A stretch of 64,000 nucleotides of DNA from an uncultured Fretibacterium sp. (GTDB taxonomy: Bacteria > Synergistota > Synergistia > Synergistales > Aminobacteriaceae). Position numbers and translations under genes: made by a program. Every line of letters begins with the position of its first letter. The first letter of the stretch is position 1. Positions 1,283-61,400 of this stretch are shown piece by piece. Location of the stretch: the NCBI GenBank assembly GCA_947168585.1, contig CAMVMK010000004.1, forward strand, positions 23,629 to 87,628, in the 5' to 3' direction. Below the pieces are notes generated by a model that worked only from the letters and a program-made list of their open reading frames with translations, made no database searches and was not told where the DNA came from.

Positions 1283-2323
1283 ATGACGAAAATTGAAAAA
1301 AGTTTATTCGGCACAACACCCGACGGACAGCGTGTCTATAATTACACGTTCATCGATGAAAAAGGACAAAGCGTCGTTATGAGCGAATATGCCTGCGCTA
1401 TCGTTGCGATTAACGTTTTGGGCAAAGACGGAAAAATTTACGATGTCGCCTTGGGCTACGATACTCTCGAAGAATATCTCAGCGACACCCGAAACTTCGG
1501 CGCAACAATCGGACGTTATGCCAACAGAATTGCAAACGGAAAATTCACACTCAACGGAGTAACTTACAACTTACCGCGCAACAACGGCAAAAATACTCTT
1601 CACGGCGGTTTCAAAGGTTTCGGCAAAAAAGTTTTCTCGTCCGAATTAAAAGATAACTGCGTAATTTTTTCGCTCGAAAGTCCTGATTTAGATGAAGGTT
1701 TTCCGGGAAATTTCAAGTTAAGCGTCAAAGTTTCGTTCGTTGACGGTGCTTTGAGAATGGCTTACGAATATATCTGCGACAAAGATACTCCTGCAAGCAT
1801 TACTAACCACAACTATTTTAATCTCAACGGACACGGGCGCGGAAGCATACTAAATCACAGCTTGAAAATTAACGCTGAAAAATATTGCCGCGCTGATGAA
1901 GGACTTTTGGCTCTTGCTCCTGCTGTAAATGTTGAAGGGACTTCGTTTGATTTCACAGGCGAACGGAAAATTATTTACAAAATGTTTGAATACTCGCCGG
2001 AAATTATTCAGGCAAGAGGCGGCTTCGATCACTGCTACGAAATTAAAGACGTTAAGAGACCTGCTGCTGTTGCTGTCGGAGATATTACAGGCATTAAACT
2101 TGAAGTATCGTCAGATATGCCGGCACTGCAATTTTATTCAGGAAATTCAATCGGCCATTGTCGCGGCAAAAACGGAGCTTTTTACAACGATCACGAGGGT
2201 TTTGCTCTTGAAAGCCAGCAGTTTCCGAACGCTGTCAACGAGCCTCAATTCCTGAGCCCGGTAATAAAAGCAGGCGAGTTACACCACGCCTTTATAGAAT
2301 ATAAATTAGGAGTTAAAAATTAA
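1283..2323 (+). CDS. galM: aldose 1-epimerase (mutarotase)
   Basis: Interconverts alpha and beta anomers of aldoses in the cytoplasm. At 346 residues it has normal GalM length. Visible motifs are the sugar-binding segment NRIANGKFTLNG (~80-91), NTLHGGFKGF with the first conserved His, NHNYFNLNGHG (~176-186) with the catalytic His, and FALESQQFPNAVN near the C-terminus with the catalytic Glu. GGAGGT lies just upstream of the ATG. It faces the pentose operon on the other strand and probably assists it by equilibrating arabinose anomers. The last five residues and the stop codon are encoded by a heptad-repeat block. Confidence 0.93.
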   Translation: MTKIEKSLFGTTPDGQRVYNYTFIDEKGQSVVMSEYACAIVAINVLGKDGKIYDVALGYDTLEEYLSDTRNFGATIGRYANRIANGKFTLNGVTYNLPRNNGKNTLHGGFKGFGKKVFSSELKDNCVIFSLESPDLDEGFPGNFKLSVKVSFVDGALRMAYEYICDKDTPASITNHNYFNLNGHGRGSILNHSLKINAEKYCRADEGLLALAPAVNVEGTSFDFTGERKIIYKMFEYSPEIIQARGGFDHCYEIKDVKRPAAVAVGDITGIKLEVSSDMPALQFYSGNSIGHCRGKNGAFYNDHEGFALESQQFPNAVNEPQFLSPVIKAGELHHAFIEYKLGVKN

Positions 2324-2358
2324 GATAATTCCTAATTTCTAACTCCTCATTCCTAATT
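2304..2358. repeat. heptad-repeat block between convergent galM and araD
   Basis: The left arm ATTAGGAGTTA lies in the last codons of galM; the right arm has CCTAATTTCTAACTCCTCAT and continues to the araD stop codon. AGGAGTTA and TAACTCCT can pair across about 25 nt, so the block could terminate both transcripts. Both genes take their stop codon from the repeat. Confidence 0.7.
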
Positions 2359-3055
2359 AATTTCCTTGCCCGTAATAAGCATTGGGGCCGTGTTTTCGCA
2401 AATAATGTTTGTCCAAAACATACTGCGGAGCTTCGGCGGCTTTAGGGTCAATAGTAATTGTATACATTGCCATTTTAGCCATCTCTTCGAGAACTACAGC
2501 GTGATAGACGGCTTTTGCGGCATCTTTTCCCCATGTAAAAGGCCCGTGGCAGCGGCAAATAACGCCCGGAACCGCGAGAGGGTCTAAATTTCTTTCTTTG
2601 AAAGTTTCAACGATAACTTTGCCCGTGTTGAGTTCATAATCGCCGTCAACTTCTTCTTTGGTCAAATTCCTTGTGCATGGTACAGAACCGTAAAAATAAT
2701 CAGCGTGTGTAGTTCCGTAGCATGGAATATCGCGCCCGGCCTGAGCCCAGCCTACAGCGTGAGAACTGTGTGTGTGAACAATTCCGCCGACAGTCGGGAA
2801 AGATTTGTATAACTCAACGTGAGTTTTTGTATCTGAAGACGGGTTCATTTTGCCTTCAACGATTTTATTATCGAAGTCAACTATAACTAAATCTTCCGGC
2901 TTAAGTTCGTCATATTCAACGCCTGAGGGTTTAATTACAATAAGTCCCTTATCCCTGTCAACGCCTGAAACATTGCCCCAAGTGTATACAACAAGGCCGC
3001 GTTTGGGCAAGTCCATATTAGCTTCATAAACTGCATCGCGTAAGTCTTTCAGCAT
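2357..3055 (-). CDS. araD: L-ribulose-5-phosphate 4-epimerase
   Basis: Converts L-ribulose 5-phosphate to D-xylulose 5-phosphate by retro-aldol chemistry at a divalent metal. The 232 residues match the AraD class II aldolase family. GNVSG (~28-32) is the phosphate-binding loop; [14 protein letters not shown] (~96-109) supplies two metal His residues; the third lies in CHGPFTWG. The segment [10 protein letters not shown] is typical of true AraD rather than fuculose aldolase. It is the last gene of the pentose operon, 9 nt after araA, and its stop codon falls in the repeat block. Confidence 0.94.
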
Positions 3056-3064
3056 GTTTATCTC

Positions 3065-4540: not shown

Positions 4541-4557
4541 TTTGTATTTTTAGCTCC

Positions 4558-5583: not shown

Positions 5584-5595
5584 TTTAGTTTTTAC

Positions 5596-7179: not shown

Positions 7180-7182
7180 GAT

Positions 7183-14924: not shown

Positions 14925-15581
14925 ATGCGAAACGGAATAATACCTGATCCAAATAGAATTTACCCTATAAATGGCGTAAAAACTCTCACATATGTAAAAC
15001 CTACTTTGAAGAATCCTAATATCATTGTAGGAGATTTCACGTATTTTGGAGATGTTGATTTTGAAAAGCACGTTACACATCATTATAGTTTTAACGGCGA
15101 TAAATTAATAATAGGGAAATTTTGCCAAATTGCCGCAGGTATCGAATTTGTTATGAATGGTGCTAATCATCAAATGAATGCTGTAACAACATTTCCATTT
15201 TATATTTTTGAAGGTTGGGATCAGGCAGTGCCGCCTAAATCAGAAATGCCGTTGAAAGGCGATACAATAATCGGAAATGATGTCTGGATATGTCAGAATG
15301 TAACAATACTACCTGGAGTTCACATTAACGACGGGGCTATTATTGGATTAAACAGTGTCGTTGCATCTGATATTCCGCCTTATACGATTGCAGCCGGCAA
15401 TCCTGCAAAAGAAATAAAAAAAAGATTTGATGATGAACTTATTTTACTTATGCTTAAATTACGATGGTGGGATTTGAGCATAAATGAAATTAACGATTTA
15501 ATTCCCATTTTGACATGCAGCGATCTTAATAAGGTTAAAAATTTTATTACGAACATGTTAAAGGAGCAAAATAAATTATGA
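14925..15581 (+). CDS. Vat-like xenobiotic (streptogramin A-type) O-acetyltransferase
   Basis: A 218-residue left-handed beta-helix acetyltransferase very like Vat enzymes, which acetylate streptogramin A with acetyl-CoA. Diagnostic blocks are FEKHVTHHY (~46-54), [10 protein letters not shown], the catalytic-His segment [12 protein letters not shown] (~75-86), [13 protein letters not shown] (~108-120), [13 protein letters not shown] and [13 protein letters not shown]. Length equals that of VatD/VatE. It has no signal peptide, unlike its neighbours, so it acts in the cytoplasm. AAGGAGA lies before the ATG at 14925, and its stop codon overlaps the next start (ATGA). It may be a resistance gene or an ancestral xenobiotic acetyltransferase. 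Confidence 0.87.
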
Positions 15582-16510
15582 AAAATTTTTCCATTATTTG
15601 TTTGCTTTTATTTTTTCTTTTTATTAATTTGAAAGAAGCAAAAGCTGTAATTCAAAATAAAGTTAATGAAAACACAAAAATTTCTAACGTAATTAATAAT
15701 CCATTATTCGGCGATTACGGCAGATTAATTTTTCCGTTAAATTCGAGTTATTACAGCGGCGATACTTTAGGAAATTTAAGCCTCACATGGTACAGCAATA
15801 TAAAACCTGCGAGAACTGTCGAGATTATAAATTATATGTTATCACAGGTTCAACAAGGCAACAAAATTTTTTACAGGATATATCCTGTAAATGACGCGCG
15901 CTCGCAAAAGACCGGATTATTTTTCTTCAAAGGAAATAAAAATTCAAAATTTGCAATCTGCAACGCCGGCGGAGGCTTTGTTTATGTAGGAGCAATGCAC
16001 GACAGCTTCCCTCATGCTTTGGAATTATCAAAGAAAGGTTATAACGCATTTGCATTAATTTATCGTCCCGGCTCTGATACAGCTTGCGAAGATTTAGCCC
16101 GTGCAATAGCTTTCATTCATGAAAACGCTTCAGAATTTGAAGTTGATACAAAAAATTATTCACTTTGGGGAGGCTCTGCAGGTGCGAGAATGGCGGCATG
16201 GCTTGGAACTTACGGAACAGAATACTTCGGTGAAAAAGTTTATCCCCGTCCTTCAGCTGTAATAATGCAATATACGGGGTTATCAGAAGTTACGGGCAGC
16301 GAGCCTGCAACCTATAACTGTGTCGGAACAAATGACGGCATAGCTTCATATCAAACAATGCAAAACAGGATTAATAAAATCAAAGCCAACGGAACAGACG
16401 CAGAAATTGAAATTTTCGATGGACTATCTCACGGCTTCGGACTCGGCGAAGGAACGATTGCTGAAGGCTGGCTTGATAGAGCAGTAAATTTTTGGGAAAA
16501 AAATAATTAG
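15578..16510 (+). CDS. secreted alpha/beta hydrolase (acetyl-esterase type)
   Basis: A 310-residue exported esterase. The signal peptide spans ~1-24. The fold shows [12 protein letters not shown] (~127-138) as the oxyanion segment, [20 protein letters not shown] (~155-174), and the nucleophile elbow [12 protein letters not shown] (~199-210). [11 protein letters not shown] (~284-294) carries the catalytic His. The layout is that of acetyl xylan or feruloyl esterases of the BD-FAE/Aes group. The ATGA overlap with the acetyltransferase gene shows translational coupling. It is the last gene of the MerR-linked operon, and its 3' end is a heptad-repeat block. Confidence 0.82.
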
Positions 16511-16541
16511 GAATGAGAAGTTAAACTCCTAACTCCTACTT
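16506..16541. repeat. heptad-repeat block between hydrolase and folD
   Basis: TTAGGAATGAGAAGTTA is followed by CCTAACTCCTACTT, an imperfect inverted pair. The minus-strand folD gene ends inside it: its last three codons and stop read AGT AGG AGT TAG. The hydrolase stop TAG is also in the block. Confidence 0.7.
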
Positions 16542-19636: not shown

Positions 19637-19664
19637 TTTCTGCTTCCTAACTTCTATTTCCTAA
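19637..19664. repeat. heptad-repeat block in the purL leader
   Basis: TTCTGCTTCCTAACTTCTATTTCCTAATT carries one arm of the repeat family (pyrimidine-rich strand). No complementary arm is obvious; the palindrome precedes it immediately. Confidence 0.55.
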
Positions 19665-19720
19665 TTGTTTTTAATGGTATTATCTTATGGCAATTTTTTA
19701 TTAAGGAGCAAAATTTTTTT

Positions 19721-22700
19721 ATGCAAATATTTAGAATTTATACCGAACGTAAAGACCGCGAAAATTTCGAGGTTCTTTCACTGCTTGACGAAATTAAAAA
19801 TATTCCCGGCAATGAAAATATTTCGGGCGTAAGAATATTAAACCGCTATGACGTTGAAGGACTTAATAATAAAATGTTCGAGACGTGCAAACATGAAATA
19901 TTCGCAGAACCTTTCACTGATAATATTTTAGATACTCTTCCTAATGATTTTGAAACAGGAGAAATTTTAGCTGTAGAGTTTTTGCCCGGCCAATACGACC
20001 AGAGAGCAGACGCGGCTGAAAGGTGTGCAATGCTGCTTTTAGGATTTAGACCTGTAATTAAAACTGCAAAAATTTATATTTTTTATGGTGATCTTAAAAA
20101 TTTCAGTGCTGTCAAAAAATTCTTAATTAACCCCGTCGAAGCAAGAGAAGCACAACTAAGCGAATATAAATCCCTCGAAATTGATTATCCCGCCCCAAGC
20201 GATGTTAAAAAAATTCCGCTGAATAAATTAACCGAATTAAAAAATTTAGCGATGAGCCGCGAGGATTTAGAATGCTGCCGAAAATATTTTGAAGCTGAGG
20301 GCCGCGACCCGACCGAAACTGAAATTAAAGTTTTAGATACTTACTGGTCAGACCATTGCAGACACACAACTTTTTTAACTCAAATTGAAGCCGCAGAAAT
20401 CCAAGATTTGAAAGTCCTCGAAGTTTACGAAAATTATTTATCAATCCGCAAAGAATTGCACCGTGATAATAAACCCGTAACTTTAATGGACATTGCTACA
20501 ATCGGCGCGAAATATCTTAAATCAAAAGGCAAACTCCCTGATTTAGTTGAAAGTGAAGAAAATAACGCCTGTACTGTAAAAATTAATGTTGATGTTGACG
20601 GTAAAAATGAAGATTGGCTTTTACTCTTCAAAAATGAAACTCATAACCACCCGACTGAAATAGAGCCTTTTGGAGGCGCGGCAACCTGTATCGGCGGAGC
20701 TATCAGAGATCCTTTATCGGGGCGCGCTTATGTTTATCAGGCTATGAGAATTACTGGTGCTGCAAGTCCTTTTGAGCCTACAATGCCGGGTAAATTATCT
20801 CAACGTGCAATTATCACAAAGGCTGCTGCAGGTTACAGTTCATACGGAAATCAAATCGGACTTCCTACGGGATTAGTTGACGAAATTTATCACGAGGGCT
20901 ACAAAGCTAAAAGGCTCGAAGTCGGCGCGGTTATTGCAGCTGCTCCTGAAAAAAATGTTATAAGAGAAAGGCCAAGCAGCGGCGATTTAGTTTTGTTATT
21001 AGGCGGCAGGACAGGCAGGGACGGAATAGGCGGTGCAACAGGCTCTTCAGTGTCGCATAATTCGAGCTTTATAGAAACTCGCGGAGCAGAAGTTCAAAAA
21101 GGCAACGCTCCTGAAGAAAGAAAGCTGCAGAGATTATTTAGAAATCCTGAATTTACGAAACTAATTAAACGCTGTAACGATTTCGGGGCAGGCGGTGTCA
21201 GTGTTGCTGTCGGTGAACTTGCTGACGGGCTTGAAATTAATCTTGACGCTGTGCCTTTGAAATATTCCGGCCTTGACGGTACTGAAATAGCCGTTAGCGA
21301 ATCTCAAGAAAGAATGGCCGTAGTTGTTGCTGAAAAAGATGCTGAAAAAGTTAAAAATTTAGCATTAAGCGAGGACGTTCAAGCAACGGTAATAGCGCGC
21401 GTAAATAATTCAGGCCGTATGAAAATGACTTGGCGCGGCAAAGAAATAGTTAATCTTTCACGCGAATTTATAAACAGCAACGGAGCAGCGAGAAAAATCA
21501 ATGTTAAAGTCAATAATTTTCACTCCTCACCCCTCACCCCTCACTCCTCACTTTTAACTGACTTAAATATCTGTTCTCATCGCGGACTTGCTGAAAGATT
21601 TGACTCGACAGTCGGAGCTCACAGTGTTTTAATGCCTTTCGGAGGGAAATTCCAAAAAACTCCGGCTCAAGCTATGGCCGCTAAAATTCCTGTAGGAAAT
21701 CACGAGACTGACACATGCTCTGTAATGTCATGGGGCTTTGACCCTTTTATATCAGAAAAATCGACTTTTAACGGTGCTTATTTAGCTGTTCTTGAATCTC
21801 TCTGCAAAATTATCGCAGCGGGAGCAGACTTAAAAAAATGCTGGCTGACTTTTCAGGAATATTTCGGGAAGCCCGGCGATAATCCTGAGCGTTGGGGGCT
21901 TCCTTTCGGAGCATTGTTAGGGGCTTTGAAAGCTCAGTTAGATTTTGAAGTTGCTGCTATAGGCGGTAAAGACTCAATGAGCGGTTCTTTCACTGATATT
22001 GACGGTAAAAATTTAGATGTTCCGCCTACTTTAATATCTTTTGCTGCTGCTGTAACAGACGTGAAAAAAATTCTCTCGCCCGAATTTAAGCGTGCAAATT
22101 CAAAAGTTTATATTCTTGAACCCGAATATGACGGGCGCGGACTTCCTGAAAAATCTTCAATGCTGAAAAATTTTGCTTTAATCGAGGAATTAAATTCGCA
22201 GGGAAAAATTTTATCGTGTTATGTTCCTACATTCGGCGGAGTCAAGGCCGCAGTTTTCAAAATGTGTTTAGGAAATAATTTAGGCTTTGAATTTGCAGAT
22301 AAAAATTTTGATGATAAACGCGGAAAATTCATAATCGAAGCTGATGAAGAATTAAATCTTAAAGTTTTAGGCCGTGTTCTTGAAACTCCTGAAATAATTT
22401 TAGACAGCGAGAAAATTAACTTGGCCGATGCTGAAAAAATTTATAATTCACCGTTTGAAAAAATTTTCCCGACTGAAGTTAAAACTTCTGCAAAAATCCC
22501 TGAAATTAAATTCAGCGGAAATAAAAGTTTTTCAAACCCTCACCCCTCATCTCTAACCCCTAAGTTTTTAATTCCTGTTTTCACTGGTACGAATTGCGAA
22601 TATGAAACAGCTAAGGCAATTTCAAAGGCCGGAGGAAATGCAAAAATTTTTGTCGTGAGGACTTTAACGCCGGATTTAATGAAAATTTCAGCGGAAGAAT

Positions 22701-23359
22701 TTGCAAATGAGTTAAAATCTTCGCAGGCTCTTGTTTTGCCCGGAGGATTTTCAAACGGCGATGAACCTGACGGCTCAGGAAAATTTATAGCGATTTTCTT
22801 ACGAAGTCCCGTAGTGCGCGCTGCCCTCGAAGATTTAATCGACAAACGCGGCGGACTTGTCGCAGGAATTTGCAACGGTTTTCAAGCTCTCGTTAAGACG
22901 GGTCTGTTGCCTTACGGAAAAATCTGCGAACCTGACGAACTCAAAACTACTTTAACTTTTAATAAAATCGGCCGTCATCAATCAAAAATCATTTTATCGC
23001 GCGTCATTAATAATTCTTCAGCGTGGCTTAGAAAAACAAAAATCGGCGAAATTTATTCAATTCCTATTTCACACGGTGAGGGGAGATTTTCATGTTCGCC
23101 GGAAATTTTTGAAAGTTTAATGAGCAGCGGCCAAATAGCCGGACAATATGTAAATCACTCGGGCGAGCCTTCAATGGAGACGCAGTATAATCCTTCAGGT
23201 TCATTCGGTGCTGTCGAGTGCTTGACTTCGCCTGACGGAAGAATTTTAGGCCGAATGGGACATGTTGAAAGGGTCGGACGGGATTTATATAAAAATGTTC
23301 CGGGAAATTACGATATGAAATTTTTTGAATCAGCAATAAATTTTTTGAAAAACAGTTAA
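19721..23359 (+). CDS. purL: phosphoribosylformylglycinamidine synthase, single-chain
   Basis: Fourth step of purine synthesis: converts FGAR, ATP and glutamine to FGAM. The 1212 residues join the synthetase and glutaminase parts. Synthetase motifs: DTYWSDHCRHTTF (~204-216), LLFKNETHNHPTEIEPFGGA (~301-320) and GGKDSMSG. The class I glutaminase (~950-1212) has PGGFSNGDEPDGSGKF, the nucleophile Cys in GICNGFQALVKTG, and SHGEGRF. AAGGAG lies 12 nt before ATG 19721, preferred over an upstream frame that runs through a repeat. Two heptad-repeat insertions, at ~601-612 and ~938-948, add Ser/Pro/Leu/His-rich linkers without breaking the frame. Confidence 0.93.
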   Translation: MQIFRIYTERKDRENFEVLSLLDEIKNIPGNENISGVRILNRYDVEGLNNKMFETCKHEIFAEPFTDNILDTLPNDFETGEILAVEFLPGQYDQRADAAERCAMLLLGFRPVIKTAKIYIFYGDLKNFSAVKKFLINPVEAREAQLSEYKSLEIDYPAPSDVKKIPLNKLTELKNLAMSREDLECCRKYFEAEGRDPTETEIKVLDTYWSDHCRHTTFLTQIEAAEIQDLKVLEVYENYLSIRKELHRDNKPVTLMDIATIGAKYLKSKGKLPDLVESEENNACTVKINVDVDGKNEDWLLLFKNETHNHPTEIEPFGGAATCIGGAIRDPLSGRAYVYQAMRITGAASPFEPTMPGKLSQRAIITKAAAGYSSYGNQIGLPTGLVDEIYHEGYKAKRLEVGAVIAAAPEKNVIRERPSSGDLVLLLGGRTGRDGIGGATGSSVSHNSSFIETRGAEVQKGNAPEERKLQRLFRNPEFTKLIKRCNDFGAGGVSVAVGELADGLEINLDAVPLKYSGLDGTEIAVSESQERMAVVVAEKDAEKVKNLALSEDVQATVIARVNNSGRMKMTWRGKEIVNLSREFINSNGAARKINVKVNNFHSSPLTPHSSLLTDLNICSHRGLAERFDSTVGAHSVLMPFGGKFQKTPAQAMAAKIPVGNHETDTCSVMSWGFDPFISEKSTFNGAYLAVLESLCKIIAAGADLKKCWLTFQEYFGKPGDNPERWGLPFGALLGALKAQLDFEVAAIGGKDSMSGSFTDIDGKNLDVPPTLISFAAAVTDVKKILSPEFKRANSKVYILEPEYDGRGLPEKSSMLKNFALIEELNSQGKILSCYVPTFGGVKAAVFKMCLGNNLGFEFADKNFDDKRGKFIIEADEELNLKVLGRVLETPEIILDSEKINLADAEKIYNSPFEKIFPTEVKTSAKIPEIKFSGNKSFSNPHPSSLTPKFLIPVFTGTNCEYETAKAISKAGGNAKIFVVRTLTPDLMKISAEEFANELKSSQALVLPGGFSNGDEPDGSGKFIAIFLRSPVVRAALEDLIDKRGGLVAGICNGFQALVKTGLLPYGKICEPDELKTTLTFNKIGRHQSKIILSRVINNSSAWLRKTKIGEIYSIPISHGEGRFSCSPEIFESLMSSGQIAGQYVNHSGEPSMETQYNPSGSFGAVECLTSPDGRILGRMGHVERVGRDLYKNVPGNYDMKFFESAINFLKNS
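21521..21556. repeat. heptad repeat inside purL (first)
   Basis: Five period-7 units of CACYCCT type (CACTCCT, CACCCCT, CACCCCT, CACTCCT, CACTTTT) lie in frame and encode a Ser/Pro/Leu/Thr/His-rich linker between synthetase subdomains. The sequence belongs to the same family as the intergenic blocks. Confidence 0.75.
22535..22565. repeat. heptad repeat inside purL (second)
   Basis: AACCCT, CACCCCT, CATCTCT and AACCCCT run with period 7 immediately before the glutaminase domain begins (LIPVFTGTNCEYET). In frame, it encodes a Pro/Ser/Leu/Thr linker. Confidence 0.7.
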
Positions 23360-23424
23360 GAGTTAGGAATGAAAAAGATTTTTTGTCTTTTCAGTTCCTA
23401 CTTCCTACTTCCTAATTCCTACTT
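23357..23424. repeat. heptad-repeat inverted pair after purL
   Basis: GTTAGGAATGAAAAAGA pairs with TCTTTTCAGTTCCTAC around a T-rich loop, then CTTCCTACTTCCTAATTCCT repeats with period 7-8. It can form a hairpin of about 15 bp just after the purL stop codon and is a candidate terminator. Confidence 0.65.
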
Positions 23425-26400: not shown

Positions 26401-26463
26401 AAAGAAGACATCGAGGAAGTTCAAGCGATTTGCGGCGAATTGACAGATTGTCTTTCAAAGTAG
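23452..26463 (+). CDS. large RNA-binding-like protein: Sm-like, cold-shock-like and HEPN-like regions
   Basis: I do not recognise a named family. The 1003-residue cytoplasmic protein shows: residues ~8-50, an Sm/SH3-like strand pattern (IGKNIELWLMPDGRRTITGV, then IVLSNG); a Pro/Ala/Glu linker (~60-80); a long helical region (~85-330) rich in short amphipathic helices; two OB/cold-shock-like modules (~345-420 with KLYGFIKCP and IFVHFNQIQD; ~445-505 with PFGKIRAKSGEVFTF and LPVRFT); further helices; and a C-terminal region with WVRNPVVHAHPEY, where Arg971 and His976 fit the Rx4-6H nuclease motif of HEPN domains. The start is TTG with AGAGGAG upstream. Inferred role: RNA binding or RNA cleavage. 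Confidence 0.75.
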   Translation: MDSKSLEPYIGKNIELWLMPDGRRTITGVLVKCEEQHIVLSNGSMLGYPLILGFQPAAGAAEIVIEQPAPAPEPIIEEKKSAVIKFQADLEKIFDKLKETLETFTLNADYVRKFRPKGQNKIQSVIESILTKYQYAVKTHEDRPYSMRMRELVENAYHLWKNNKTSMAASEIYAFTLYLTGESEKSVKLYMRIHDFHGAFMAASSAASKILSAACIAVSEDLTPAKFAAFLKLEPPQLASILIWILDNVIKDNKEAEFNNAAALACKILGFNDWADSEILFNNENKKALRDWLSTRPTDDKIIADALKILSKDSLLTQEETVQKVDWTTQRFEGDFDFFNPNRDKLYGFIKCPVLKKYGVTLSNENSIFVHFNQIQDRQLRQKLLLGKKMHPDLRVTFKLGSNNYGPAASEVREKSDIDTVLKINMQSALAEEGKIDFYRRHDAIPFGKIRAKSGEVFTFNELNISDPLLMVFLEYSPSAEGLPVRFTRSSLDNEKVQIHKVEAAEPFPDDKIKAWQEGGLIEKAREKMNLAVAEKDFELKFDEEEFDPEVEELLERDYFPLAPYVPGENKQQNFSAPEKKFQPHNNKNGVETFNELPKFLQDKILSATIAGKCNTEFLGDSFYRRGHYREVKANYLQLISRFNSDDASLSNAERAERYFLIARYVYNFFSLADETDIKLYSAADEDNIRIMAYKGLEYMIYDQFDLAKKNDEHYDTARRYCLIRIADEIQTARRIDNENTWFKIYIYSYFVNGLHYHSKSGKYSPQDISLTGSSLLECNDFAKFFDGLLALAYVTEPSMLYPTLRSLIYNPEYSAFMIEKLGISYKDGDGMTELQAAFQASVDEYAKRKDIFELDPEVKLSPEIFRILSVQSALIRLMKKELTHILRTPLENLDAALKRATPILDTEEYKNSLEKTRRKYNPEAGLLDILPINVLGKIMGQYWGHFAPYFDNKPFLTYWKERFDKLQWVRNPVVHAHPEYLKKEDIEEVQAICGELTDCLSK

Positions 26464-26518
26464 TTAGGAGTTAGGAATGAGGAGTTAGCCTGCTGTTTGG
26501 TCAGGTTGCTCCTTATTT
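26462..26518. repeat. heptad-repeat block and terminator hairpin
   Basis: AGTTAGGAGTTAGGAATGAGGAGTTAG starts at the stop codon of the 1003-residue gene (TAG). GGAG-ttaG-CCTG and CAGG-ttG-CTCC then form a hairpin followed by TTATTTTTATTTTT, a good terminator for the plus strand. Confidence 0.7.
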
Positions 26519-34257: not shown

Positions 34258-34536
34258 TTAAGAATTATTTTTTATTCCTAATTCCTCATTGCTTTTCTCG
34301 TGGCCAATCTGCCCGATTTTTCGCAGTGCAAGAAAAAATAACACGCTTGTAACTCCTGCTCCGACTGCCGCCTCCGTTATCGCTAAATCCGGCGAACGCA
34401 GCAATACCCATATAACCGCCATAACAAGGCTATAACTCATAAAAATTATTACGGAATTAAGCAAATTTTTTGAAATCGAAACAGCTATAGCGCACACGAT
34501 CAAAAAAATTAATAAAAGCCACTCAATTACTATCAT
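34258..34536 (-). CDS. MbhD-like (DUF4040) Mrp antiporter subunit
   Basis: A 92-residue protein with three transmembrane helices. The block RSPDLAITEAAVGAGVTSVL (~48-67) is diagnostic of the MbhD/DUF4040 region that forms part of MrpA in other bacteria. Its start overlaps the stop of the mnhG gene by 14 nt. The last residues (SNEELGIKNNS) are encoded by a heptad-repeat block, so the C-terminus has been extended or replaced by the repeat. Confidence 0.85.
   Translation of the reverse strand: MIVIEWLLLIFLIVCAIAVSISKNLLNSVIIFMSYSLVMAVIWVLLRSPDLAITEAAVGAGVTSVLFFLALRKIGQIGHEKSNEELGIKNNS
34274..34290. repeat. heptad-repeat block in the 3' end of the MbhD-like gene
   Basis: ATTCCTAATTCCTCATT on the plus strand encodes, on the minus strand, the last residues of the MbhD-like protein. 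Two period-7/8 units are visible. Confidence 0.55.
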
Positions 34537-40701: not shown

Positions 40702-40908
40702 ATGAGATTATTTATAACGACACTTTCATTATTAAGCGTTATCGGATTCGGCTATGCTCTTGCAGGCTATGGAGCTTCTTTAATCGGCGGCGAAATTAAT
40801 TCAGTTTATGTCATCAACGGATTGAGTGCGGGATTTTTGTGCGGCTTTCTTGCCATGTTTTTATGGTATAGACACAGAAAAGATTTTTTTGATTCCGGTG
40901 AGGAGTGA
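40702..40908 (+). CDS. small membrane protein with two helices
   Basis: A 68-residue protein, unknown family. Two transmembrane segments (~1-26 and ~33-56) are joined by a short loop with Asn-Ser-Val; the C-terminal WYRHRKDFFDSGEE is charged and probably cytoplasmic. AGGAGAG lies 13 nt upstream of the ATG. It is divergent from the papain-like protease gene. The last residues and the stop codon are read from a heptad-repeat block. Confidence 0.6.
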   Translation: MRLFITTLSLLSVIGFGYALAGYGASLIGGEINSVYVINGLSAGFLCGFLAMFLWYRHRKDFFDSGEE

Positions 40909-40920
40909 GGGGTTAGAGTT
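40897..40920. repeat. heptad-repeat block at the end of the small membrane protein gene
   Basis: GGTGAGGAGTGAGGGGTTAGAG has period 7 (GGTGAGG, AGTGAGG, GGTTAGA). It includes the TGA stop codon. Confidence 0.65.
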
Positions 40921-40978
40921 TTGTTCCGCGCTTAGTTTTTTTTAAGAAGAAAATTTTAAGCACGCGCAAAGGCTTTTT

Positions 40979-41049
40979 AAGGTGAGGGGTTAGGAGTGAG
41001 GGGTGAGGAGATTTTTTACTTCCTACTTGCTTTTTTTACTTCCTACTTA
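40979..41049. repeat. heptad-repeat inverted block before the histidine kinase stop
   Basis: The left part is GGTGAGGGGTTAGGAGTGAG with continuation GGGTGAGGAG; the right part is ACTTCCTACTTG plus TTTACTTCCTACTTA. The kinase stop codon (TAA on the minus strand) is at the edge. Strands alternate between purine-rich and pyrimidine-rich, so partial hairpins are possible. Confidence 0.65.
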
Positions 41050-43181: not shown

Positions 43182-43214
43182 ATGAGGAATTAGGAGTTAG
43201 GAATTAGGAATTAA
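43182..43214. repeat. heptad-repeat block upstream of the DUF2442-like gene
   Basis: ATGAGGAATTAGGAGTTAGG followed by AATTAGGAATTA, period 7 (GAATTAG, GAGTTAG, GAATTAG). It lies between divergent genes rather than at a gene end, so is an exception to the 3'-end pattern. Confidence 0.7.
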
Positions 43215-46143: not shown

Positions 46144-46209
46144 GAATTAGGAGTTAGGAAGCAGGAAGTAAAAAAAATTTCCTCACCCCTAACTTCTAAC
46201 CCTTAACTA
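46144..46209. repeat. heptad-repeat inverted pair between mmdC and ABC ATPase
   Basis: GAATTAGGAGTTAGGAAGCAG is followed across AGTAAAAAAAATTT by CCTCACCCCTAACTTCTAAC. The arms are complementary with mismatches, giving a long imperfect hairpin between convergent genes. Confidence 0.7.
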
Positions 46210-48277: not shown

Positions 48278-48302
48278 AATTAATTTTTAATATAAAGAAG
48301 CA

Positions 48303-48362
48303 GAAATTAGGAAACAAAAAATCTTTTCACTTCCTACTTCCTGCTTCCTAACTCCTAATTAT
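48303..48362. repeat. heptad-repeat block after the binding-protein gene
   Basis: On the plus strand AAATTAGGAAAC is followed by ACTTCCTACTTCCTGCTTCC and TAACTCCTAATTA. On the minus strand the gene's stop TAG lies at the start of the run (TAG GAG TTA GGA). Hairpin pairing is partial. Confidence 0.65.
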
Positions 48363-50387: not shown

Positions 50388-51167
50388 ATGAAATATATTT
50401 TTTTCGATATAGATCACACTCTCGTAAGCCACGTAAATGAACCTCATATTCCTGAGCAGACTCTCGAGGCCGTAAAATTGTTGCGCGAGAACGGACACGT
50501 CCCTGCGATTGCTACAGGGCGCGCAGGATTTTTGACTTTCAAGACCGCAAAAGAGTTTGAAATTAATAATCTCGTCTGCTCCGGCGGTGCTGAAATTTTT
50601 ATAGATAACCGCGAAATTTATAGAAAATTTTTCCCCGATGAACATTTAGAAAAATTTTTAACTATCGCTGAAAAATTCCCGGAATTAACAGCCGCCGCTG
50701 ATGATAAATTTCTTTACACTGACGAAAGTTCCGGACTTTTTGGAAAATATTTTAATAGTCAGGCAGGTTATGACTGCGTCAAGCCCATGAAAGATTTAAC
50801 GCGCCCTATGATGTGTTATTTCATGAGATCTCATAAAAATTTGAATGATAATCACGGAATTTTTTATAATCCTCCTGAAGGCGTGAAGCTCGAATTAATG
50901 AACGGTTTTACGGAAGCAAGAGACGCAAAAACTTCAAAGTGGCGCGGGATTGAAATTTTCATGAAAGAAGCCGGAGCAAATATTAATGACGCTGTAACTT
51001 TCGGCGACGGTTCTAACGATATAGAAATGCTTGAAAATGCGAAATTAAGTGTTGCTGTAGCGAGTGCTTCAGATAAAGTTAAACAAGCTGCGAAATTTGT
51101 CTGCGGTGATATTGACAGCGGCGGAATTTTACAAGCCTGCAAAGAGTTAAAATTAATTCCTAATTAA
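50388..51167 (+). CDS. HAD-superfamily Cof-type phosphatase
   Basis: A 259-residue hydrolase. Motif I YIFFDIDHTLVS (~3-14) has the nucleophile Asp and the second Asp; motif II AIATGRAG; motif IV TFGDGSNDIEML (~203-214). The cap domain between (~85-185) is of the Cof/C2 type. Probably dephosphorylates small sugar phosphates or cofactors. It starts 9 nt after the CobU-like gene, so it may be co-transcribed. Substrate unknown; its 3' end has a small TTAATTCCTAATTAA repeat remnant. Confidence 0.87.
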   Translation: MKYIFFDIDHTLVSHVNEPHIPEQTLEAVKLLRENGHVPAIATGRAGFLTFKTAKEFEINNLVCSGGAEIFIDNREIYRKFFPDEHLEKFLTIAEKFPELTAAADDKFLYTDESSGLFGKYFNSQAGYDCVKPMKDLTRPMMCYFMRSHKNLNDNHGIFYNPPEGVKLELMNGFTEARDAKTSKWRGIEIFMKEAGANINDAVTFGDGSNDIEMLENAKLSVAVASASDKVKQAAKFVCGDIDSGGILQACKELKLIPN

Positions 51168-51365: not shown

Positions 51366-52832
51366 TTGAAGAAAAAATTTTTAAGAAATAAATTAATTTT
51401 AATTTTTATATTTTTATTTTTTACGCCCTGTCAGGCTCAAGCCGTAACTAAGGCTGAATTTATAGGCGGCTTGCTGAAGGCTCGAGGCATAGATTGGAGC
51501 GAAACTTCCGAATTTCAAAATAAAAGTCCCGTAGCTTTTATGCTTCGTTCAGGATTAATAACTGACGATGTTAAGGACGTTCAAAAAACTGTAACAAGAC
51601 GAGAGGCTCTCCGCTGGATAATTCAAAGTCTCGGACTTTCATTCGAGGCCGGAATTTTTTCGGATTATCCTACGGGCTTTGAAGACGATAAAAATTTAAC
51701 TTCGTTCGAGCGAGGATGCTTAGTTGTTGCTTCAAATATGAATCCCGTAATTTTCTCGAAAGCTAAAAATTTTAACGGCAAAAACGCTCTGAGTTCAAAA
51801 GAGTTTCAAGTTTTAATGTCGCGTGTTCAAGACGCAAGCCTGAATTTAACGCTCGATATGGTCAGAAATCCTCTTGAAGGCATGAAAATTTTTATTCACC
51901 GCGAAGGAGTTTTGACTGGCATCCCTAACTGGAGATTTTACGCTGATGGAATTAAAACGCGCCCGGCCGCTGATACTTTCAAAAATTCATTAAAATCTTC
52001 AGGAATTGCCTCAAACGTTTTCAGCTTTGAAGGAGCTTTTGGAGTCCGTACTGACAAGCTCGAAAATTATCACGAAATAAAAAAATTAATTTCAGTTGCA
52101 AAGGCGAGAGGCTTACAGTTTAGAATTTTGCCGTCATTCACGAATATAAAAACTGATATTGTCCCGAAATTTTGGGTTATTCTTAAAATAGATCCGACTT
52201 ACTGGAAAATCGAGCCGTTAATCTCAAAAAACAGCCCGAAAGATTTATTGACTCTTTCACAGCTTTCAAGACAGTACGGGGCAAAGGCTTCAATTAATGC
52301 AGGATTTTTCGCAACGACAACTCCCGGACACGGTTATCCTATAGGAGCATTAAAAATCAACGGAAATTTAATCAGCGAGGGCTACGACGGGCGGGGGTGT
52401 TTAGGCTGGAACGATGACGATGAGGCAGTCTTTCAGGTTGTCGCTAACTCCGAAGAAATTCACGAATGGAATGACATGGAAAATATTATTCAGGCCGGTC
52501 CGTTATTATTAGATGACGGTTTTGTCTCGGCAATTCCCGAAGATTTTAATAATTCTTTAACGGGCGTCAGGCATCCCCGTTCAGCTGTCGGAATTAACGC
52601 TGACGGCGATTGGGTTTTTGTTGCTGTTGACGGGCGCAACGGTCTTCACGCTTCGGGGGCGACTATTTCAGAACTTACGGAAATTTTGCGCTCTCAGGGA
52701 ATTATGTACGCCTTAAATCTTGACGGAGGCGGCTCGACTGAAATAATTATTAATGGAAAAATTTATAACTCTCCGTCTGACGCTCATGAAAGAAAAATCA
52801 GCTACGGACTCGGAGCTATAAAAAGGCAGTGA
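51366..52832 (+). CDS. exported phosphodiester glycosidase (NAGPA/DUF2233 family)
   Basis: A 488-residue exported protein. Signal peptide ~1-26. Residues ~27-150 resemble S-layer-homology-like modules (VTKAEFIGGLLKARGIDW, TRREALRWIIQSLGL), perhaps a wall- or envelope-binding region. The C-terminal domain (~270-488) is NAGPA: NAGFFATTTPGHGYPIGAL (~315-333), IIQAGPLLLDDG, GVRHPRSAVGI and NLDGGGSTEIIING. Such enzymes release N-acetylglucosamine from phosphodiesters. TTG at 51366 is chosen (GAGGA 9 nt upstream, signal follows). The stop TGA is in a repeat block. Confidence 0.83.
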   Translation: MKKKFLRNKLILIFIFLFFTPCQAQAVTKAEFIGGLLKARGIDWSETSEFQNKSPVAFMLRSGLITDDVKDVQKTVTRREALRWIIQSLGLSFEAGIFSDYPTGFEDDKNLTSFERGCLVVASNMNPVIFSKAKNFNGKNALSSKEFQVLMSRVQDASLNLTLDMVRNPLEGMKIFIHREGVLTGIPNWRFYADGIKTRPAADTFKNSLKSSGIASNVFSFEGAFGVRTDKLENYHEIKKLISVAKARGLQFRILPSFTNIKTDIVPKFWVILKIDPTYWKIEPLISKNSPKDLLTLSQLSRQYGAKASINAGFFATTTPGHGYPIGALKINGNLISEGYDGRGCLGWNDDDEAVFQVVANSEEIHEWNDMENIIQAGPLLLDDGFVSAIPEDFNNSLTGVRHPRSAVGINADGDWVFVAVDGRNGLHASGATISELTEILRSQGIMYALNLDGGGSTEIIINGKIYNSPSDAHERKISYGLGAIKRQ

Positions 52833-52898
52833 GGAGTTAGGAATTAGGAATGAGGAATTAGGAATGTTTTTTTGATTTCTCGTTCCTAATTATTTTTT
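52830..52898. repeat. heptad-repeat block with hairpin, between convergent genes
   Basis: TGAGGAGTTAGGAATTAGG and AATGAGGAATTAGGAAT lead into a hairpin, AATTAGGAA...TTCCTAATT, followed by ATTTTTTTA. It supplies the TGA stop of the NAGPA gene and encodes the last residues (RNEKSKKHS) and stop of the peptidase gene. Likely a bidirectional terminator. Confidence 0.75.
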
Positions 52899-56490: not shown

Positions 56491-56538
56491 AAATTATATA
56501 ATTTTTCTAAAAATTTTTTCAGGAGTTGAAAATATAAA

Positions 56539-57798: not shown

Positions 57799-58804
57799 TA
57801 TTTTTATCGATATTTTCAAATGGATTTTCAGGGGCTGTGATAAATGACTGCCAGCCTGTTTCAAGCAATTTTCGGCATGTCCATTCACGCCCTTCGGAGT
57901 CTAATTCGGCAGTCAAGTCATCGAATAATAAAATCGGGCTTCTCCTTAATCTAAGTTTTATTAATTTCCCGGCGTTAATTATTAAATGCAGAATTAATCT
58001 CCGTTTCTGTCCGCGACTTAATGCTTCAGAAGCAGGCTTTCCAATATCGCGCAAAGTTATAGAAAGTTCCTCATAATTAGGCCCCGTTAAAGGTCTGAAT
58101 GCTGCGCTTTCACGAGCTAAATATTTTTTATCTTTTAGAATATTTTTCAAAAATCTTTCGCCGTTAGTTTCTAAGACGGGCAAAAATTCTAAATTAAAAT
58201 TATTTTGATTTAATATAGTTTTTAAGAGCCCCGTAACTTCGCGCCGTCTGTCCATAATCCAGCCGCCTAACTCGCAAAAAAGTTTTGACGTAGGTTCGGG
58301 TGATTTTTCCTGACGCAATAAAGCAGTCCTTGAACGCATTACGTATTTGAAATCAGAAAGTTTTTTAGCGTAAGGAGCAAATAAAAGCGAGCAAAGTCTA
58401 TCTATAAATAAACGCCGTATAGCAGGAGCACCGTCAATTAAATTCACTCCGCCGGTCAAAAAAATTATTGAAGGAACAGCGAGCCTTAAATCCGTAAACG
58501 AAATAGTTTTTTCGTTAATTCTTAAAGCTATTCGCGATGAAATTGAAGCAGAGACGCTGAATTTTTCTTCGCCCGAAAACGAGCCGTACACTAAAGCCCG
58601 TGAAGCGGGATTATTCCATGAAATTAAATTTTGAGTTTGAGTGAAAGATCCCCAGCCGCAAAGAACGCTCAAAGATTCAAGCAAATTAGTTTTTCCGCTG
58701 CCGTTATGACCGAGTATCAAATTAATGCCCGGACTCCATTGAACTTTGAACTCCGGGCCGCTGAAATTTCTAAAATTTTTTATGACGCTGTAATTAAAAA
58801 TCAC
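57767..58804 (-). CDS. recF: DNA replication and repair protein RecF
   Basis: SMC-like ATPase that loads RecA at gapped DNA. 345 residues. Walker A GHNGSGKTNLLESL (~34-47), INLIDGAPAIRRLFIDRL (~118-135) and the ABC-type signature LSRGQKRRLILHLIINAGKL (~271-290), Walker B ILLFDDLTAELD (~301-312). The start overlaps the dnaN stop by 4 nt, the usual dnaN-recF arrangement, but dnaA is not in the window. It overlaps the glycerate kinase by 32 bp, in antisense. Confidence 0.93.
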   Translation of the reverse strand: MIFNYSVIKNFRNFSGPEFKVQWSPGINLILGHNGSGKTNLLESLSVLCGWGSFTQTQNLISWNNPASRALVYGSFSGEEKFSVSASISSRIALRINEKTISFTDLRLAVPSIIFLTGGVNLIDGAPAIRRLFIDRLCSLLFAPYAKKLSDFKYVMRSRTALLRQEKSPEPTSKLFCELGGWIMDRRREVTGLLKTILNQNNFNLEFLPVLETNGERFLKNILKDKKYLARESAAFRPLTGPNYEELSITLRDIGKPASEALSRGQKRRLILHLIINAGKLIKLRLRRSPILLFDDLTAELDSEGREWTCRKLLETGWQSFITAPENPFENIDKNINLLTLMQHH

Positions 58805-60078
58805 TGTTGATTATTTTCTTCTTGATTTTCGCTTTGAATTTCTTCATAGTCCATCGGAGTACCGGCTTCCGAAGCTTCTTCAGGCGCGTAATTAATATTT
58901 TCAAATTCGCCCATTTCCGTTTCTGCGATTTTATCCTGCGGGCTTAATCTTGCAGGCATGAGCATATAAAGAAAATCATCGCTGTTGCTTCTCTTCATTC
59001 GGGTTTGGCTTTCATCGCCGCTGAACTCGATTTTAATGTCGCCGTTTCCGAGAATTTTCAAGCCGTCCATGAAATAACCGACATTAAAGCCGACCTGTAA
59101 AAATTTGCCCTCGATTTCGGCGTTCATGGCCTCGCTTGCTGTACCGCGTTCGGGAGCTCTGGCTGTGATTTTTAATTCGCCCTTTTCAGGACTTAATGTC
59201 ATTGACATAACATGAGCCGGAATTGCGCGTGCAATAATGTCAATTCTTTCAAGAACGGGAATTAAATCTTCCGTTTTGATTTTCATAGAAGTTTCTACGA
59301 CATCATTCAAAATTCTTTCATAGACCGGGAAATTTGCATCGATGAGTCTTATAGAAAATTCTACGCCCTCAAGATTAAACCAGACTGTTGAATCGTCGGC
59401 TAAAATATTCACGAGTTTATCGGGATAGCTTGAGCCTAAAGTTTTGCCTAAATCTTTGAAAGCCTGAGCGGGCATGATTAAATCATCTTTATCTTGTCCT
59501 TTTGCGTTGTTAATACTATCGCACAGTGATTTTGCGAGCGCGAGTCTTTTTCCGTCAGTCGAAACAATCTGCACGAGGCCTTCTTTAGCTCTTAAAAGAC
59601 ACGCTCCGATATATTTCGGGAAATCTGTAGGCATAGAAGCTGCCGAACCGCCTTCCGCGATTAATGTTGAAAGTTCGCCGGCATTAAAATTAAAAATTTT
59701 TTCTGCTCCTGAACTTTCCGGAAGATTCGGGAACATTTCTGCGGAAATTATAGCGAATCTCGTTTTGCTTTTGCCTGCACCTAAAAAACCTCTCTCGGAA
59801 TTTATTTCTAAAAGTAAATTTTCAGACGCTGATTTTTTAATCATGCTCCCTAAAATCGCGGCAGGAACAACAGCAACGCCAGGTTCACGGACTTCAACGC
59901 CCTCAGCTTTGCAGCGCACGGAAGTTTTAAGGTCTGTAGCCTCAAGAGTTACATTACCGTCTTCAGAAGCTCTGATAAAAATTCCTGAAAGAGATTCTTT
60001 AGATGATTTCGGGTCGATATATTTTTCAGCGACCTGCCAAGCCTTAAGGAAATTTTGACGCTCTAATTCTAATTTCAT
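58801..60078 (-). CDS. dnaN: DNA polymerase III sliding clamp beta
   Basis: Ring-shaped processivity clamp. 425 residues, about 50 more than usual. Three clamp domains can be traced, with FLKAWQVAEKYIDPKSSKES (~9-28), ASMPTDFPKY, STDGKRLALAKS (~170-181) and the C-terminal LYMLMPARL at ~375, where clamps normally end. The extra C-terminal tail (~380-425) is acidic and rich in Glu, Asn, Gln: EMGEFENINYAPEEASEAG and onward. Coupled to recF by an ATGA-type overlap. No DnaA boxes are seen upstream, so this is probably not the replication origin. Confidence 0.93.
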   Translation of the reverse strand: MKLELERQNFLKAWQVAEKYIDPKSSKESLSGIFIRASEDGNVTLEATDLKTSVRCKAEGVEVREPGVAVVPAAILGSMIKKSASENLLLEINSERGFLGAGKSKTRFAIISAEMFPNLPESSGAEKIFNFNAGELSTLIAEGGSAASMPTDFPKYIGACLLRAKEGLVQIVSTDGKRLALAKSLCDSINNAKGQDKDDLIMPAQAFKDLGKTLGSSYPDKLVNILADDSTVWFNLEGVEFSIRLIDANFPVYERILNDVVETSMKIKTEDLIPVLERIDIIARAIPAHVMSMTLSPEKGELKITARAPERGTASEAMNAEIEGKFLQVGFNVGYFMDGLKILGNGDIKIEFSGDESQTRMKRSNSDDFLYMLMPARLSPQDKIAETEMGEFENINYAPEEASEAGTPMDYEEIQSENQEENNQQ

Positions 60079-60224
60079 TGAGAAAAATTCATTCCTTTCA
60101 CATTTTTAAGATAATAAAAAATTCTTTTCAGCTAATTATAGCAACTTAAAATAATAAAAAAATTTTCATTTTCTGTGATATAATTTTTTCATAAAAAATT
60201 CTCGAACGAGTCGGGAATTTATTT

Positions 60225-60248
60225 TTTTCAACTACATTTTCAACTACA
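60225..60248. repeat. two-copy 12-bp tandem repeat (site 3)
   Basis: TTTTCAACTACA occurs twice in direct succession, then AAAATCTTAATTTTAATTCG. The flank almost matches that at 36643. It lies in the dnaN-rluD gap; no other feature is visible there apart from AT-rich sequence. Confidence 0.8.
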
Positions 60249-60327
60249 AAAATCTTAATTTTAATTCGCCGCCGTAAACTCTCGCAGAAAAATTTTTTAT
60301 AATAAAAAATCGCAGAATTCCGCAGGC

Positions 60328-61374
60328 TTAATCCGAAACATCGTGAAACAAAATTTTATTTTTAATATAATCCAAGAAAGCTGGAGCAATATTTTTTCTG
60401 AACGTCATTAATTCGCCTGTCGTAGGGTGTCTGAAACTCAAACGCCACGAATGTAAAAGAACACGGCCGAGTTCAAATTCTTCTTCTGGTGCTCCGTAGA
60501 CGCAATCACCGACTAAAGGACAGCCGAGAGCCGAAAAATGCACACGGATTTGATGAGTACGTCCCGTATAAAGTTTGAACTCTACCATTGAAATTTTTTC
60601 CTGTGAAATATTTTCACGTGTCCATAAAACTTTATAGCCCGTTAAAGACGGTTTGCCGCCTGCTATTATCGCCATTTTCAAAAAATTATTCGGGTCTCTG
60701 TCGATAGGCCCTGAGATAGTTGCTTCGCTTTTTTTAGGCCGTCCGTGAGCAAGAGCAATATAATGCTTATCAATTTCGCGGGCTGCGAACATTCTTTGAA
60801 GTTCCATCGTAGATTTTTCCGTGCGTGCTACAACCATCAAGCCGCTAGTCCCGGAGTCTAATCTGTGAACTATTCCGGGACGAAGCCAGGCGTTTAATTT
60901 TTTTAATTCCGGATAACGGTAAACGAGGCCGTTTACGAGAGTATTTCGCCAATTTCCCGGCGACGGGTGAACGACAACGCCCGCAGGTTTATTGACTACG
61001 ATAATATCAGGGTCTTCGTAAAGGACTTCAAAATCTACAGGTTCGGCTCTCAAATAACTTTCATTGACAGAAGCCGGAATTTTTACGGTAAATTTATCGC
61101 CTGTTTTAACTTTTGAAGATGATTTCAAAATTTTTTCCGTGTTTTCCTGTGCGCCTGAGTATGTAATTTTTTTAGTGAAAACTAATTTTTGTATACGGGA
61201 GCGCGACATTTCAAGCTCTTCGGCCAAGAAAACATCAAGACGGTCATAATCTTTTTCAGCTGTGATTTCGATTAAATTTTCGCTGCTGCCGTCAAGTTCA
61301 ATTTCACTTTCGCCCGCAAGATTTTCAAGCCCGTTTTCCGTTTCAATTTCGTCAAGAATTTCTAAATCTTCCAT
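60328..61374 (-). CDS. RluD-family 23S rRNA pseudouridine synthase
   Basis: A 348-residue enzyme converting uridine to pseudouridine in RNA. An acidic N-terminal extension (~1-40) precedes an S4 RNA-binding domain (~42-100, RLDVFLAEELEMSRSRIQKL). Catalytic domain ~105-340: VVNKPAGVVVHPSPGN, and the catalytic Asp in GIVHRLDSGTSGLMVVA (~168-184), with YTGRTHQIRVHFSALGCPLV (~269-288). RluD or RluC cannot be separated by eye. It lies 20 nt downstream of the Cdc48-like gene, with a repeat block in between. Confidence 0.9.
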   Translation of the reverse strand: MEDLEILDEIETENGLENLAGESEIELDGSSENLIEITAEKDYDRLDVFLAEELEMSRSRIQKLVFTKKITYSGAQENTEKILKSSSKVKTGDKFTVKIPASVNESYLRAEPVDFEVLYEDPDIIVVNKPAGVVVHPSPGNWRNTLVNGLVYRYPELKKLNAWLRPGIVHRLDSGTSGLMVVARTEKSTMELQRMFAAREIDKHYIALAHGRPKKSEATISGPIDRDPNNFLKMAIIAGGKPSLTGYKVLWTRENISQEKISMVEFKLYTGRTHQIRVHFSALGCPLVGDCVYGAPEEEFELGRVLLHSWRLSFRHPTTGELMTFRKNIAPAFLDYIKNKILFHDVSD

Positions 61375-61381
61375 TATTTTT

Positions 61382-61400
61382 TACTTCCTAATTCCTACTT
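61382..61400. repeat. heptad-repeat block between the AAA ATPase and rluD genes
   Basis: TACTTCCTAATTCCTACTT on the plus strand. On the minus strand the AAA gene ends AAG TAG GAA TTA GGA, so the stop TAG is in the repeat. Confidence 0.65.

Follow-up and report, generated by a model that had tools for sequence, protein, structure and literature searches.

Dispersed NNNAGGA heptad blocks at gene ends and in frame within proteins of a Synergistota clade

The DNA analysed here (the window) is a stretch of 64,000 nucleotides from an uncultured Fretibacterium sp. (GenBank assembly GCA_947168585.1, contig CAMVMK010000004.1, positions 23,629 to 87,628), in which short blocks of tandem heptanucleotides with the unit NNNAGGA lie beside or within galM, folD, purL and many other genes (Table 1). 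A first-pass annotation of the window had listed 13 block places and a remnant near 51154, and the sequence it described is present at all of them. Specifically, the window holds 40 matches to TTAGGANTTAGGA with up to two mismatches, compared with 6.35 ± 2.57 in 100 shuffled sequences (largest 13). A strict block caller, which skips arms that are degenerate or short, e.g. at 2305, 16506, 23355, 40898, 46180, 48299 and 51158, returns 13 blocks, one of which (21524-21551, inside purL) is new relative to the first-pass list. Nine stop codons had been said to lie inside blocks. Six do so in canonical heptads, namely those of the gene at 15578-16510 (TAG), folD (TAG), the 68-residue gene (TGA), the binding protein (TAG), the NAGPA gene (TGA) and the AAA gene (TAG); the TAA of galM lies in a degenerate heptad (ATTAAGA), whereas the TAG of the 1003-residue gene and the TAA of the histidine kinase adjoin the first full heptad. 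The TAA of purL, within GTTAAGA, is an additional stop beyond these nine. Matches to alpha/beta-hydrolase models cast doubt on araD, the former label of the gene that ends at 16510. An Rfam scan of the window gave no match at gathering score.

Table 1. Heptad blocks, arms and remnants in the window
Position	Strand	Feature
2305-2325	+	Degenerate heptads ATTAGGA GTTAAAA ATTAAGA; galM TAA in the third
2330-2357	-	Four-heptad block, sense to the gene ending at 2357; convergent pair
16506-16519	+	Two heptads; hydrolase gene TAG inside ATTAGGA
16527-16540	-	Two heptads; folD (identified by domains) TAG inside GTTAGGA
19638-19665	-	Four-unit block upstream of purL, antisense to purL
21524-21551	-	Four-heptad block inside purL, in-frame part of a variable loop (HSSPLTPHSSLL)
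23355-23368	+	Two heptads; purL TAA inside GTTAAGA
23396-23423	-	Four-heptad antisense arm before the 1003-residue gene
26456-26483	+	Block after the 1003-residue gene; TAG adjoins first full heptad
34276-34296	-	AAAAGCA plus two heptads
40898-40911	+	GTGAGGA GTGAGGG; TGA of the 68-residue gene in the second
40982-41009	+	Four-heptad block between convergent genes
43182-43209	+	Four-heptad block in a divergent gap
46146-46166	+	Block after biotin-carrier gene (domain match); relatives show hairpins with T runs there
46180-46207	-	Degenerate inverted arm facing 46146
48299-48312	+	Degenerate arm AGCAGAA ATTAGGA facing the block at 48332
48332-48359	-	Four-heptad block; TAG of solute-binding protein gene (domain match) inside
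51158-51164	-	One-heptad remnant (ATTAGGA) at the end of the 259-residue gene
52829-52863	+	Five-heptad block; NAGPA gene TGA inside; reaches convergent gene ending at 52858
61386-61399	-	Two heptads; TAG of CDC48-like AAA gene (domain match) inside; next ATG 11 nt past block

Abundance of this heptad family is restricted to one clade. A search of G000, the 2.35-Mb, 110-contig draft genome to which the window belongs, returned 533 matches to TTAGGANTTAGGA when one mismatch was allowed, spread over many contigs, compared with 23 for the reversed pattern. Six of the 43 genomes in the genus are rich in heptads (G000, G007, G009, G018, G036 and G040, all drafts with stated completeness of 74-100%), carrying 187-635 matches each; the other 37 carry at most 29, a maximum found in G017, whose reversed control is 49. 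The exact pattern occurs in 13 of 185 genomes from the phylum, and more than three matches occur only in the six rich genomes and in G103, which belongs to another genus within the same family. In a PurL tree of 30 genomes, G028 and the five rich genomes in the tree form a 100/100 clade; the sixth, G009, has no PurL match and could not be placed. G028 is block-poor despite its place inside this clade, with 13 blocks in 282 kb by a looser caller, four of them inside genes. The few arrays of G028 have ATCAGGA and AGCAGGA units besides GTTAGGA.

Samples of 458, 400, 351, 282 and 334 kb were taken from G000, G036, G007, G028 and G017, with genes predicted by a custom caller without annotation. Among four genomes tested, AGGA-AGGA spacing peaks at 7, 14 and 21 nt in G000 (104, 64 and 43) and G036 (207, 131 and 79), the peak at 7 is weak in G028 (14) and there is none in G017 (12). 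In line with this, a core-free test finds near-perfect period 7 in 8/438, 30/334 and 27/308 gene tails of G000, G036 and G007, and in 0/256 and 0/306 of G028 and G017, compared with 1, 0, 0, 1 and 0 tails of period 6 or 8 in the five genomes in the same order. Additionally, the transketolase-like protein of the window has ten named relatives at 62-90% identity, all in Synergistales/Synergistaceae assemblies from goat, sheep and red deer, two of them from goat rumen; an eleventh match, 26% identical, comes from another phylum. One goat-rumen record (L032) holds four blocks in 19.8 kb, and the records of the other nine relatives hold none in 12-22 kb each. Heptad arrays of other kinds were also seen: a 15-unit array starting with eight GTTAGGA, plus some short blocks, in G103 (G103:C1:8802-8905, L222), and a few homogeneous AGGAGTC, AGGACTC or AGGAAGC arrays in G001, G002, G003, G006, G008 and G010. 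A second dispersed element, around TTTTTTCAACTACATTTTCAACTACAAAAATC, lies at 60170-60320 of the window and has short copies, 93-100% identical, in G018, G007, G036 and also heptad-poor G017.

Common NNN triplets of the unit are GTT, ATT, GTG, AGT, AGC and ATG in G000 and GTT, GGT, ATT, GGC and AGT in G036. A first block caller returned 75, 90, 13 and 12 blocks in G000, G036, G028 and G017, and a later one, which requires two canonical units, returned 58, 78 and 77 in G000, G036 and G007; triple values below refer to these last three genomes in this order. Four units are the modal block length (24/58, 44/78 and 36/77). The second unit is GTT or ATT in 10/10, 34/40 and 23/28 of the clean four-unit blocks, and unit type tracks position in the block, with 16, 0 and 1 of 2000 within-block shuffles as extreme. 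Moreover, G036 blocks of at least four units are preceded by A in 50/50 cases, and the base before that is C in 64%. Taken together, the blocks look like cassettes rather than simple arrays. At L074:1662, L080 (-) 19238, L090:15466 and L091 (-) 15678, a GC-rich, hairpin-like CCTGCC...GGCAGG stretch interrupts the heptads, with a run of T or A after it. Several blocks (window 40940-40980, L080 near 2604, and L072) share a neighbouring sequence, around TTTGCGCGTGCTTAAAATTTT or its complement.

The blocks are placed by a rule of position and strand relative to stop codons. For blocks outside gene interiors (53/58 in G000 and 65/78 in G036), a sense block is found at the stop in 34/53 and 45/65 cases, respectively, far above random placement (7.5 ± 2.5, maximum 15, and 10 ± 2.8, maximum 19, in 300 trials each), whereas antisense blocks show no clear excess at opposite stops (11 vs 7.5 and 13 vs 10.1). 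In these two genomes together, 79 of the 80 sense blocks found up to 60 nt from a stop have their start at -19 to +14, and 29 of the 48 antisense blocks within the same distance are located 15-60 nt on; in a convergent gap, the antisense block is the sense block of the opposite gene. A same-strand gene follows the sense block at a stop in 20/34 (G000) and 33/44 (G036) cases, and in 14/34, 11/44 and 13/45 such a block lies between convergent genes. Divergent gaps, which make up 8.8/36.3, 8.2/26.9 and 8.1/27.2 kb of the gap DNA, hold 4/58, 5/78 and 9/77 blocks; antisense blocks before starts were seen by eye. The heptad step of 7 shifts the frame by one, so successive TAG/TGA units cover all frames. 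A block contains or adjoins the stop of 55 listed genes, some of them shared by G036 and G007; this stop lies -2 to 16 nt into the block, and blocks encode protein tails such as VGVRS and KASRK at gene ends. The genome-wide counts and the proximity to stops support the first-pass suggestion of a dispersed family that colonises 3' ends.

Block sites vary between lineages, and relatives show empty sites. An alignment of G007 with G036 spans 178 kb at 93% identity (one short alignment of 404 columns was left out) and contains 52 block loci. Of these, 6 are identical, 14 have substitutions and 13 occur in both genomes but differ by indels; a further 12 are called in G007 alone and 7 in G036 alone, and at some of these the other genome keeps degenerate remains. 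Within ungapped aligned blocks (98 units), triplet positions diverge by 13-15% and core positions by 2-9%, compared with 5.6% in the flanks. At an FtsX-type gene pair, a 36-bp block lies past the stop in G036, G018 has a block of other units that is likely independent of it, and G007, G040, G028, G012 and G008 have none (G000, G009 and G017, in which the pair was met in the opposite orientation, were not scored). Similarly, a block separates dapA from dapB in G036 and G007 and is missing from the 8 other scored genomes (10 of 30 loci were scored, the other 20 having failed the start-motif criterion); in G000, G009, G028 and G040 the two genes overlap as TAATG. Block sites mostly differ between G000 and G036, where a sense block stands at the gene end of either genome in 9 of 54 reciprocal gene pairs and of both in one.

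Copies also occur in frame inside proteins, so block sites are not only 3' ends. At least 23 blocks lie inside called genes (3 in G000, 10 in G036 and at least 10 in G007), some being orthologous across genomes and some host genes being unverified calls. In LpxK, G007 has ELGVRSEELGV where G036 has ELGV, with a 21-bp gap, and in HisH a heptad-coded stretch sits where solved HisH chains show a nine-residue gap. PurL contains heptad-coded loops near residues 145, 600 and 925-955. The loop near residue 600 corresponds to the window block at 21524-21551 and is coded by different heptads in G000, G036, G007 and G018; in the G036 loop, a GTG unit appears twice where GTT would create an in-frame TAG. 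The G036 HisH frame (L134:19150-19863) is broken upstream of the heptad loop, through either a real change or an assembly error, and that of G007 is open.

We favour, with just under an even chance of being right, the explanation that the blocks are cassettes of 28-36 bp, mostly composed of about four NNNAGGA heptads and abundant in one ruminant-associated Synergistaceae clade, which spread as non-autonomous, near-neutral copied DNA. Cassettes would insert widely, and those that fall inside genes would then mostly be lost. Copies at gene ends would persist, as they offer coding-strand TAG/TGA in successive frames and add few residues. Where a start follows, the AGGA core may serve as a ribosome-binding site and thereby favour persistence, and antisense copies may be tolerated before starts. 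Once a block exists, slippage or conversion probably adds, removes and re-types its units.

Several results weigh against this explanation. The clean four-unit blocks comprise 10/10, 31/40 and 28/28 distinct 28-mers; since two whole blocks rarely match letter for letter, there is no sign of recent exact copying, and copies would have to be re-typed fast or made otherwise. There is no target-site duplication at dapA/dapB, no donor copy was found, and the direct repeat at the 48-bp G036 gap is imperfect and not readable as a clean duplication. The block-poor state of G028 inside the clade means that loss or decay must be added. In same-strand gaps, blocks that start 0-14 nt past the stop are sense rather than antisense at 11:2, 22:4 and 16:3; because the strand bias persists past the stop, supply of stops is not its whole reason, and the part of the stop preference that exceeds tolerance would need targeted insertion or a 3'-end role. 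Additionally, TCCT is found up to 60 nt downstream of 21/34 block ends compared with 63/402 other ends in G000, and of 26/46 compared with 53/287 in G036, which hints at RNA structure. As for a driver, Y1_Tnp (PF01797) has no match in G036, G007, G009 and G018, a partial one in G000 and a full one in G040, and RVT_1 (PF00078) has no match in G036, G007 (75% complete) and G018 and is present in G000, G009 and G040. A protein of either family is rejected as general driver, both being absent from G036, the best rich assembly, with other transposase families not searched. Repetitive extragenic palindromic (REP) elements mobilised by REP-associated tyrosine transposases (RAYT) do not fit, as the units are direct heptads, not palindromic, and Y1_Tnp is not in all rich genomes; repeats copied by reverse transcriptase (RT) do not fit, as an RVT_1 gene is not in every rich genome.

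The tight rule of position and strand and the TCCT excess speak for functional 3'-end elements, in which a sense arm and an inverted arm would form an RNA stem that terminates transcription or stabilises mRNA, and which would spread by replacing terminators. Relatives do show hairpins with T runs, by eye, at window sites 46137 and 48355, and a T run directly follows 9/49, 18/71 and 16/60 blocks (at least three units, as in the arm-pairing and G4Hunter analyses). Nevertheless, we consider this explanation doubtful. Own and swapped arms are equally complementary (-19.9 and -20.2, -22.2 and -22.5, and -21.3 and -21.2 kcal/mol, respectively), so that arm covariation fails as proof of a terminator; more than half of the sense blocks at stops in G000 and G036 precede a same-strand gene, as counted above, including those of dapA/dapB and the FtsX-type pair; and other copies lie in frame inside proteins. 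Given the co-directional neighbours, the in-protein copies and the arms that are not locus-specific, the terminator replacement proposed in the first-pass annotation is not the general rule and is supported only at single places (46137 and 48355). Ordinary short tandem repeats, arising by polymerase slippage from seeds that resemble ribosome-binding sites or stops and kept where harmless, are consistent with the 14-, 21- and 7-bp indels within shared blocks, with the small number of identical blocks, and with longer arrays elsewhere, e.g. the 15 units in G103 and the AGGAGTC arrays in other genus members. This origin is unlikely, however, in that block length peaks at four units, mixed units obey the position rule, and genomes of 93% identity differ by 36- and 48-bp gaps at single sites, with the 36-bp block absent or replaced in five further genomes.

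A G-quadruplex element like the heptads of Xanthomonas and Nostoc is very improbable here, even though four units supply four GG tracts and two typed G036-type strings with GGT units are predicted to fold at -9.8 and -19.4 kcal/mol, compared with -8.4 for typed (GGGAATC)4. A quadruplex is predicted for the G036-type strings but not for a typed G000-type string (0.0), which speaks against it as a general function, and G4Hunter reaches 1.2 in 7/49, 1/71 and 0/60 blocks. The mean G4Hunter score of blocks is 0.75-0.83 and that of the control (GGGAATC)4 is 1.14, itself below the usual cut of 1.2, so this cut does not discriminate. Least probable of all is translational coupling, with AGGA heptads acting as ribosome-binding sites for the next gene: the block ends within 16 nt of the next start in 4/20, 8/33 and 10/32 same-strand cases, and the 36 bp gained by G036 supply an AGGA and an ATG that is in frame with the following FtsX-type gene, but most blocks are farther from a start or lie between convergent genes. 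Ribosome binding is accordingly rejected as a general function, only a minority of same-strand cases fitting it. Each of these readings, be it terminator, ribosome site or quadruplex, accounts for a part of the observations only.

Beyond the spread of near-neutral copied cassettes favoured above, a bolder proposal is that a four-heptad cassette, bringing its own stops and a ribosome-binding core, is written whole at coding-strand stops by a machine that is neither RAYT nor RT and seeds 7-residue peptides of the ELGVRSE type into loops. We regard this as possible but improbable; if true, the blocks would represent a new class of mobile DNA, with the gene ends and loops of a whole clade being rewritten. 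Independently of this proposal, the in-frame copies show a simple way in which repeated DNA can add peptides to conserved enzymes. Because the genus holds both rich and poor genomes and a pair of 93% identity, heptad spread and gene-end function become testable.

Heptads of related form exist far from this clade. With a window block as query, similar heptads were found in seven plasmid records, and the four examined contain arrays on Nostoc, Anabaena and Sulfurovum plasmids and blocks in Monoglobus. Short tandemly repeated heptanucleotides (STRR) are known from cyanobacteria, and arrays of GTTAGGA and ATCAGGA occur on the plasmid stretches from Nostoc N6 and Anabaena WA102; these two stretches hold one array of 10 units and a group of arrays with 3, 5 and 8 units rather than lone four-unit blocks. 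The Sulfurovum array runs across the point where a DNA polymerase III delta gene is annotated to end. In Monoglobus pectinilyticus (L218:15600-20500), three AGGA-heptad blocks, one directly after a stop, lie within 5 kb in a defence island with an ABC-three component system and type I restriction. Spread of heptads over the Monoglobus record was rejected, as three other 50-kb stretches hold only one triplet called twice, in L221. For the heptads of distant plasmids, a shared and a repeated origin cannot be told apart.

The first-pass annotation had named heptanucleotide repeats of filamentous cyanobacteria as the known analogues; heptads do occur there, but the known families are wider, with Xanthomonas and Beggiatoaceae also in print. 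Among the literature matches listed, a search only partly directed at Synergistetes gave no report of such repeats in that phylum. Marine Beggiatoaceae carry TAACTGA direct repeats which resemble the present blocks in being mostly intergenic heptads in short sets, with stops in three frames and some overlap with the upstream stop (PMC4679880). Unlike that uniform unit, which sits mostly just before starts and has little Shine-Dalgarno character (PMC4679880), the units here are AGGA heptads at stops, and this excludes the TAACTGA family by both unit and position. Rickettsia palindromic elements likewise occur as short repeats in frame in unrelated protein genes; they are palindromes of about 150 bp with a conserved peptide, whereas the present blocks are direct heptads of 28-36 bp mostly at gene ends (PMC10969869), so that the in-frame habit is the only common trait and membership is rejected.

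The closest likeness is to the heptameric repeats GGGNATC and GGGGA(C/T)T of Xanthomonas and Nostoc (PMC4692102). They too are dispersed heptads, mostly of at least four units and variable in unit number, which lie in sense within 50 bp of a stop, with stop overlap, or in antisense upstream of open reading frames, are rare between divergent frames and reside inside genes in a minority of cases (PMC4692102). Their general traits recur here, namely a 7-nt period, tandem sets, genome-wide spread, sense orientation near stops and few copies in divergent gaps. That both obey one strand rule points to a shared cause, which might be a function at 3' ends or strand-specific insertion. The GGGNATC family proper is excluded, the core here being AGGA rather than GGG. 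Differences also include the mixed triplets with their position rule and the coding-strand TAG/TGA in successive frames. Moreover, most of the Xanthomonas and Nostoc repeats are described there as lying between the same genes in two species (PMC4692102), whereas the sites here mostly differ between G000 and G036. Taken together, dispersed heptads with the same position rule are already known from Xanthomonas and Nostoc, and it is the Synergistota clade, the cassette form and the in-frame peptides that look new.

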